DNA from: Gordonibacter sp. 28C
Lineage (GTDB): Bacteria > Actinomycetota > Coriobacteriia > Coriobacteriales > Eggerthellaceae
DNA: 64,000 nt
NCBI RefSeq assembly: GCF_003339845.1
Contig: NZ_PPTR01000001.1
Coordinates: 434,001 to 498,000 of the forward strand
Direction of reading: 5' to 3'
Position 1 is the stretch's first letter; every line of letters begins with the position of its first letter. The notes beneath the pieces are model-generated. The model had not been told where the DNA came from and made no database searches. It saw nothing but the letters and a program-made list of their open reading frames with translations. The translations under genes and the position numbers were made by a program. Below are positions 20,529-21,490 of this stretch, piece by piece.

Positions 20529-20664
20529 GGGGCGGGGGCCGGCGAGGGGTCGGCGAGGGCCGGCGCTCGAGCAGTCCTGAGCTCGCACGAACAGCCCGCT
20601 GGGCTGTTCGGCTCGTGCGGAATCTCGCTCCGGCTCTCGCCGACCCCTCGCCGGCCCCCGCCCC
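20529..20664. repeat. Long nested inverted repeat, 136 bp
   Basis: Left arm 20529-20557 and right arm 20636-20664 are perfect 29-bp inverse copies (starting GGGGCGGGGGCCGG). Inside, CGCACGA (20584-20590) and ACAGCCC (20591-20597) pair with GGGCTGT (20601-20607) and TCGTGCG (20613-20619). It begins about 24 bp after the ZIP gene stop and has no coding potential. It could work as a terminator, but the size suggests an inserted repeat unit. Confidence 0.8.
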
Positions 20665-20765: not shown

Positions 20766-20812
20766 TTGTCATCCTGAGCGGAGGCGGCGAAGCCGCCGGA
20801 GTCGAAGGATCT
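20766..20812. repeat. CATCCTGAGCGG..GAAGGATC repeat (half copy)
   Basis: GTCATCCTGAGCGG leads into a GGCGGCGAAGCCGCC hairpin and GTCGAAGGATC. The same order is found at 28956-29146 and 53317-53444, where the element is full length with an inverse copy at the other end. Here only the left half is present. Confidence 0.8.
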
Positions 20813-20951
20813 CACGCAGCAGCGGGAGGTGCCACGGCTGTCTCGCCTCGTGCCAACTCCGGTAACGCGAAGGCTGCATGAGAGGGTACATGCCCGAAAT
20901 AAGTGGCACTTAGCGGTTACGTTCAAGAGCCTCGTTTGCTATAATGCAGGC

Positions 20952-21060
20952 GAGCCGCAGGGAGCGGTAACTCCCCACGGCTCTCGGATCGTCTCGGCGG
21001 TTCGGATGTTATGCGCTGTGCCCCGGTTCGTCCTTGTCGGACGACCGGGGCGTATCTATC
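20952..21060 (+). ncRNA. Candidate antisense RNA opposite the 54-residue peptide gene
   Basis: TATAAT at 20940-20945 would start transcription near 20952. The transcript begins with a stem AGCCG-N2-GGGAG ... CTCCC-N2-CGGCT (20954-20983) and ends in a GC hairpin (21020-21051) followed by GTATCTATC. The roughly 105-nt product is complementary to the 3' part of the minus-strand gene 21009-21173. This is the arrangement of type I antitoxin RNAs of the Fst/par kind, where two convergent transcripts overlap at their 3' ends. The assignment is inference. Confidence 0.5.
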
Positions 21061-21173
21061 GACACGAGCTTCAGCAGAAGCTCGGCCGCCCCGAGCAGCA
21101 CGCCCAGCAACGCGACGTGCAGCCCGAGAACCTGCAAGATCACTCCGGTAAGGGCAAGCAGCGTATCATCCAT
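21009..21173 (-). CDS. 54-residue hydrophobic peptide, candidate type I toxin
   Basis: Small gene read on the minus strand: ATG at 21173, TAA at 21011-21009. The product starts MDDTLLALTG, has one long hydrophobic helix (about residues 5-36, with LLGVLLGAAELLLKL), and ends in a polar charged tail (SSDKDEPGHSA). AAGGGGGGTGA lies 8 nt before the ATG, a near-ideal ribosome site, which argues for a real gene. One membrane helix plus a charged C-terminus is the layout of Fst/Ldr-like toxins. A convergent short RNA overlaps its 3' half. A holin-like or small regulatory membrane peptide is the alternative. Confidence 0.6.
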   Translation of the reverse strand: MDDTLLALTGVILQVLGLHVALLGVLLGAAELLLKLVSIDTPRSSDKDEPGHSA

Positions 21174-21490
21174 AGAGGGTCACCCCCCTTCCTAAAATCG
21201 GAAATGGGTGTAAGGGGTGTCGGTCCTCTCCGCCTGGACGAATCCGTGCGTCTATCCTACCTCCGCAACCTTGCACACCGACCGTAATCCGACCGTCGCG
21301 GGGCCGCGCGGATCTTGCACGATCCTCGCCTGTGCGCCGCCTCGATCTTCCGCGCTTATCGCCTGTTTCCAACACGGTTCCAACCGATTGCCGACATCCG
21401 CCTCTTTCGGCGGGCGCGCATCGTGCGGGCGCGGGGGAGCGGTATACTGGGTGATCAACGGAAAAGGCTTTGCGGAAAGGACTGGCTGCC

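Follow-up and report, generated by a model that had tools for sequence, protein, structure and literature searches.

We found that a small locus in the window, the stretch of 64,000 nucleotides from Gordonibacter sp. 28C that was analysed as a whole, is probably a chromosomal type I toxin-antitoxin-like module (rough probability from the sequence comparisons, 0.77). Two opposed transcripts at the locus are very likely, and toxicity of the encoded peptide is nearly as probable as the module itself. The locus is a member of a gene family that seems not to have been described before, in which small membrane-peptide genes have a conserved antisense RNA opposite them and for which Pfam, NCBIfam and Rfam hold no entry. 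The computed support consists of the conserved parts and their geometry, the RNA structure, the selection on the peptide, the co-occurrence of peptide and RNA, and a loss that runs in one direction. As the peptide, the promoters and the RNA structure are kept across genera, the window locus is more than a chance arrangement. The original suggestion that it may be a new type I-like module in Coriobacteriia is supported.

Table 1. Parts of the locus, with their positions in the window
Feature	Position	Strand	Basis
54-aa class A peptide ORF	21009..21173	minus	ORF call, 12 relatives, dN/dS, AlphaFold2
Ribosome binding site AAGGGGGGTGA	21180..21190	minus	sequence; kept in relatives
Anti-SD arm CACCCCT of the 5'UTR stem	21213..21219	minus	5'UTR fold
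Toxin-side -10, TAGGAT (predicted)	21254..21259	minus	alignment position and scan
Antisense promoter, extended -10 (TGC TATAAT)	20937..20945	plus	same offset in 62/64 scored loci
Predicted antisense (antitoxin) RNA, three hairpins	about 20952..21052	plus	covariance model, covariation; ends predicted
Antisense hairpins 1, 2 and 3	20952-20983, 20984-21005, 21019-21052	plus	
Candidate mRNA 3' hairpin of the peptide gene, complementary to antisense hairpin 1	20952..20983	minus	minus-strand fold; no T-run
Antisense RNA/coding sequence overlap, 43 nt	21009..21051	both	coordinates

The 54-residue minus-strand gene at 21173-21009 and the ribosome site that had been proposed for it are both present (Table 1); the deduced peptide is MDDTLLALTGVILQVLGLHVALLGVLLGAAELLLKLVSIDTPRSSDKDEPGHSA. 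The TATAAT proposed at 20940-20945 on the opposite strand is preceded by TGC, which makes it an extended -10, and it stands without a good -35. The hairpin proposed at 21020-21051 folds at about 21019-21052 with -27 kcal/mol (z = -4.9), and the plus strand from 20940 to 21060 folds into three hairpins (z = -4.6). The 5' end of the peptide mRNA is predicted near 21247, and its 3' hairpin may lie at 20952-20983. In two respects the original prediction has to be modified. It had the antisense RNA cover the 3' half of the gene; the RNA does overlap the ORF, but only in its last 43 nt, and the remainder pairs with the 3'UTR. It also had each transcript end in a terminal hairpin inside the other; the hairpins exist, but neither has a good T-run, and a generic scan of the window locus finds no terminator. 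In the relatives, a short TCTTTC follows the hairpin. The stop codon lies inside the antisense RNA at every intact locus examined.

In the genome of the window (G000, 3.86 Mb), the class A peptide is present in a single copy. By protein search, full-length class A relatives were found in four Gordonibacter genomes (this one included), four Eggerthella genomes (g22) and one genome of g25, with at most three copies per genome; the first two genera were recognized by contigs shared with records of Gordonibacter sp. Marseille-P2775, G. pamelaeae and Eggerthella sinensis. The alignment of 12 class A loci is conserved in the toxin-side -10, the SD-complementary stretches of the 5'UTR, the peptide, the hairpin of the last codons, about 60 nt past the stop codon and the antisense -10, and similarity drops off beyond both promoters.

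A covariance model built solely from the class A antisense RNAs (R1) gave 66 clear loci in 17 of 138 Eggerthellaceae genomes, spread over seven genera (Gordonibacter, Eggerthella and five others), with up to 11 RNA loci per genome; three further matches, one of them in an 18th genome, were weak. The window RNA scores 119.3 bits in the R1/R2 covariance family, and 50 of the 66 loci score far under the training class. Most of the newly found RNAs face small hydrophobic peptides of 33-43 aa that fall into several sequence classes with the geometry unchanged: on the opposite strand, a short ORF ends inside the RNA and has a strong SD, typically GGAGGTG. Class B1 (for example MTDLVLISAVLQLIASAVYLAAVILERLPARKDREP), of which the genome of the window has two copies, class B2 (for example MTVLDLLALAELLVKLVTRIVEFALMIRDALQSRRGKERSK) and the less numerous groups from g36 and g46 are mutually alignable. 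Because R1 contained no information on these peptides, finding them at this position supports the pairing of RNA and peptide independently. We do not claim that classes A and B are one peptide family (hhalign probability, 14%).

Scans of 398 class-level and 396 phylum-level genomes with a broader model (R2), whose stricter filters may have lost weak matches, gave clear members in Eggerthellaceae only; outside the family they gave nothing beyond weak matches of 28-31 bits. Such matches in G251 and G109 fall in coding sequence and were rejected as members, as were weak protein matches in other families (E 0.003 to 0.01), which showed no such locus where the sequence was inspected. Neither the protein nor the RNA pattern had a match in IMG/VR or in plasmid collections, and phage collections gave merely a 30-nt chance match. 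This absence from mobile elements counts against a type I reading, although chromosomal type I systems are common. In Rfam, the window region gave sub-threshold chance matches only, and four class B loci that were tested gave none.

Several features of the surroundings were also observed. In several genera, modules of classes A, B1 and B2 are neighbours of one and the same alcohol dehydrogenase gene, on differing sides (L079 at G065:C9:81199-82581, L077, L102, L108, L114, L118 and L125). In G065, a B1 module occupies the gap between the ZIP and dehydrogenase genes, with the dehydrogenase inverted, and the same gap in the window holds the class A module. A weak RNA match in genus g37 (L134, G089:C44:394-503), near the same dehydrogenase gene, may be a decayed B1 module. 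Directly past the ZIP-type transporter gene of the window is a GC-rich intergenic inverted repeat (20530-20664, arms of about 44 nt), which yields spurious sub-threshold microRNA matches in Rfam. The palindromic intergenic repeat at 20769-20811 is one of 56 exact-pattern copies in the genome of the window, with the pattern TCATCCTGAGCG-(variable palindrome)-GGAGTCGAAGGATC. The copies often lie close together as inverted pairs, and the inner palindrome changes with its pairing preserved.

The antisense RNA is the more conserved partner, with a mean column identity in class A loci of 85% for the antisense stretch versus 71% for the peptide. In an alignment that had been fitted to the RNA structure, 94.5% of the pair cells of 65 sequences are standard, pairing falls to 50-54% when partners are shifted by one base, and both-sided changes occur in 21 of 35 pairs (12.5 in shuffles); in class A alone they occur in only 3 of 35. 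Five pairs with both-sided changes lie in hairpin 1, outside the ORF. The changes in hairpin 3 partly track the peptide class, because this hairpin also encodes the peptide tail. Four positions of hairpin 2 are U-G or G-U pairs in 64, 36, 42 and 62 of the 65 sequences, and the complementary strand would carry A-C mismatches there. These pairs fit the antisense strand only, which indicates that the structure of hairpin 2 is maintained on that strand.

Both promoters are recognizable across the family. Of 64 scored loci, 62 have an antisense -10 that matches TATAAT in at least five of six positions and lies 5 to 8 nt upstream of the model start; usually it is an extended -10 or is accompanied by TTG or GTGG near -35. 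On the toxin side, -10-like hexamers lie about 82-98 nt upstream of the ATG in most classes and closer in B2; TAGGAT in the window is TATAAT or TATACT in many relatives. An element, AAGTGGCA, was observed upstream of antisense promoters in the window (20899-20907) and in the Gordonibacter B1 loci L093, L107, L113, L115 and L119; in the B1 loci it resembles a -35 and lies 18 nt upstream of the -10, and in the class A locus it lies farther upstream.

The SD of the window is predicted to be masked in the 5'UTR fold, with an unpaired probability of 0.02 against 0.25 in shuffles (as low in 3 of 40). The median in the family is 0.05, versus 0.26 with shuffled upstream sequence; the predicted masking stands out in the majority of class A and B1 members and in the groups from g36 and g46, and is indistinct from shuffles in B2. 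The 5'UTR stems show modest compensatory change. In two modules that differ in class and genus, L095 (G053:C1 near 3002900) and L032/L049 (G063:C1 near 482700), a similar insert in the 5'UTR (GGTCGTATGGTGCGC..TTGCCGGAAG) replaces or splits the usual SD-masking stem. A duplex comparison showed no excess affinity of the antisense RNA for the start region, which favours control through the 3' overlap.

The class A peptide is modelled by AlphaFold2 as a single helix (residues 3-39) followed by a disordered tail, which is charged. The maximal 19-residue Kyte-Doolittle value averages 2.0 to 2.3 in classes A, B1 and B2. The peptide is, from its codon substitutions, under purifying selection: in pooled and hence non-independent pairs, dN/dS of the leading codons is 0.46 (A), 0.43 (B1) and 0.52 (B2) in frame, versus 0.84 and 1.60 in the shifted frames of class A and 0.84 to 1.60 over all classes, except for one B2 frame (0.55). 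No significant Pfam or NCBIfam family was found for the peptide classes; two of 12 class A members match Hol_Tox (PF16935) weakly (best E 0.018), and the window peptide and class B do not match it.

The check that had been proposed, whether peptide and antisense promoter occur together in Coriobacteriia, came out in favour of the locus. All the full-length peptides from the protein search (12/12 class A and 38/38 class B, 50/50 together) face the RNA, so that a peptide without antisense RNA was not seen among these matches. The reverse was seen. Of the 66 RNA loci, 51 have an intact peptide, one (L074) is cut by the contig end, and 14 have lost the peptide. Ten of the 14 (L063, L064, L082, L083, L094, L098, L099, L103, L125 and L126) are truncated from the 5' side, with promoter, SD and start missing and the tail codons still legible; L076 and L092 carry frameshifts, L127 has lost the start codon, and in L122 the peptide is gone. 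The antisense -10 still has at least five of six matches in 10 of the 14 and is degraded in L064, L099, L126 and L127. Comparison of flanks between species placed intact and lost copies at orthologous sites (L056/L082, L095 and L112/L099, L091/L094, L109/L103, L090/L076); for L096 (intact) and L126 (lost), orthology is by flanks only. Loss of the peptide with the RNA kept is the pattern expected of a toxin with its antidote, and is the strongest, if indirect, sign of toxicity.

This record bears on an alternative that we consider unlikely, in which the peptide is a small membrane protein with a non-toxic physiological role, such as modulation of a transporter or sensor, and the antisense RNA sets its dose. 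Purifying selection, the chromosomal location and the sites common to several species would all suit such a protein, and antisense control by itself is no proof of toxicity; however, the RNA has outlived the peptide 14 times with the reverse not seen, there are up to 11 paralogues per genome, and the several peptide classes have only the antisense scaffold in common. Still less probable is that the locus serves mainly to make the RNA, which would be a conserved small RNA acting in trans on other targets, with the peptide gene secondary. The RNA's conservation above that of the peptide and the peptide-less copies with retained promoters agree with this, but 51 of 66 loci stand opposite an intact peptide, the toxin-less copies are recognizable remnants of full modules, and hairpin 3 varies with the peptide class. 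A dispersed palindromic repeat without expression, with incidental ORFs, is very improbable, for all its dispersed copies, GC-rich hairpins and other palindromic repeats nearby, given the codon-level selection, the conserved SD and two promoters, the end of conservation at the promoters and the sites common to several species.

For the toxin-antitoxin-like module, we infer transcription, pairing in the cell, decay route and toxicity by analogy, as follows. The weak promoter at 21254-21259 would give a short mRNA for the single-helix membrane peptide; its ribosome site would be sequestered in the 5'UTR stem, so that little peptide would be made. The stronger convergent promoter at 20937-20945 would give a well-expressed three-hairpin RNA of about 100 nt, complementary to the final 43 nt of the ORF and to the 3'UTR. 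A duplex over the 3' approximately 100 nt would commit the mRNA to RNase III decay, stabilize the masked ribosome site, or both. When the RNA runs short, the peptide would enter the membrane and growth would stop.

The paralogues may also be connected. Within the compared genomes, the first 62 nt of the RNAs share a mean identity of 81-89%, even between classes, and RNAs of different classes have perfect matches of up to 41 nt. Computed duplex energies in the genome of the window are -130 to -181 kcal/mol for non-cognate and -248 to -282 for cognate pairs. These values make cross-regulation between paralogous modules plausible. More tentatively, at somewhat less than even odds, one near-constant antisense scaffold may guard several membrane peptides per cell, with the RNAs acting on each other's targets, because each paralogue's 3'UTR has a match to roughly their first 62 nt, and the antitoxin-only copies serving as communal antidotes in a cross-wired network, in what is possibly the first type I family described in Actinomycetota. 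If such a network is true, communal antidotes would let toxins be lost or swapped. The paralogue set, with up to 11 copies of the family per genome in human gut bacteria, is a case, open to testing, of one antitoxin scaffold meeting several putative toxins, and the orthologous sites document in nature how such toxins are lost and their antitoxins kept.

According to a paper of 2025, type I systems had been known only in Proteobacteria, Firmicutes and Tenericutes, to which it added Cyanobacteria (PMC12390103); in the open-access literature, we found no type I system for Coriobacteriia or Actinomycetota. As in type I systems generally, the peptide here is small and hydrophobic (54 aa; usually <60 aa), and the antisense RNA is, at the sequence level, complementary to the toxin mRNA.

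The locus had been likened to Fst/par. Like Fst/Ldr, including par of pAD1 (PMC7472228), it has predicted convergent RNAs with a 3' overlap and complementary hairpins, a small hydrophobic helix with a charged tail, and a 5' stem predicted to mask the SD. However, the Trp that Fst/Ldr members conserve where the helix meets the charged C-terminus (Val in the pAD1 prototype) is conserved in neither class A nor class B, and the alignments of both classes have no conserved PxxxG motif. In Fst/Ldr, the direct repeats DRa/DRb provide a further site of pairing where the toxin gene begins, and no repeat of this type joins the antisense RNA to the start region at the window locus. In par, the overlap stays outside the coding region (PMC4147584), whereas here it enters it. 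We therefore reject membership in Fst/Ldr, for which signature residues and repeats were tested, and keep the comparison as an analogy only.

Zor/Orz of E. coli is likewise a multi-copy locus in which antitoxin-only copies keep their promoter (PMC11264685). The 656 orz-only loci analysed beside 2,439 full zor/orz loci (PMC11264685) are a precedent for the antitoxin-only copies here. In Zor/Orz, the pairing region differs between copies, which may limit cross-talk (PMC11264685), whereas in the present family the 5' portion of the RNA hardly varies between copies and peptide classes. MsoT1/MsoA1 of Microcystis (PMC12390103) is, as here, a type I-like locus outside Proteobacteria, Firmicutes and Tenericutes. 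It is a single characterized locus of a cyanobacterium, tested in E. coli (PMC12390103), whereas the present family comprises dozens of loci in Actinomycetota, known from sequence alone.

In TxpA/RatA and BsrG/SR4 of Bacillus subtilis, RNAs that overlap at their 3' ends trigger RNase III decay or strengthen the masking of the SD (PMC4147584). The convergent transcripts overlap at their 3' ends by about 75 nt in TxpA/RatA and about 120 nt in BsrG/SR4 (PMC4147584), and by a predicted 100 nt or so here. As in these systems (PMC4147584), a hydrophobic peptide of <60 aa has a ribosome site that is predicted to be masked. With the transcript ends as predicted, the 3'-overlap geometry would fit at every intact locus. 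Sequence relation to the holin-like TxpA/BsrG toxins, the family of Hol_Tox, does not go beyond the two weak class A matches and is not significant. They are found in prophages of Firmicutes and the present loci on chromosomes of Actinomycetota, where, unlike in the Bacillus pairs, a near-constant antisense scaffold stands opposite several peptide classes. By analogy with TxpA/RatA and BsrG/SR4, the likely mechanism is control of a membrane peptide by a 3'-overlapping antisense RNA.
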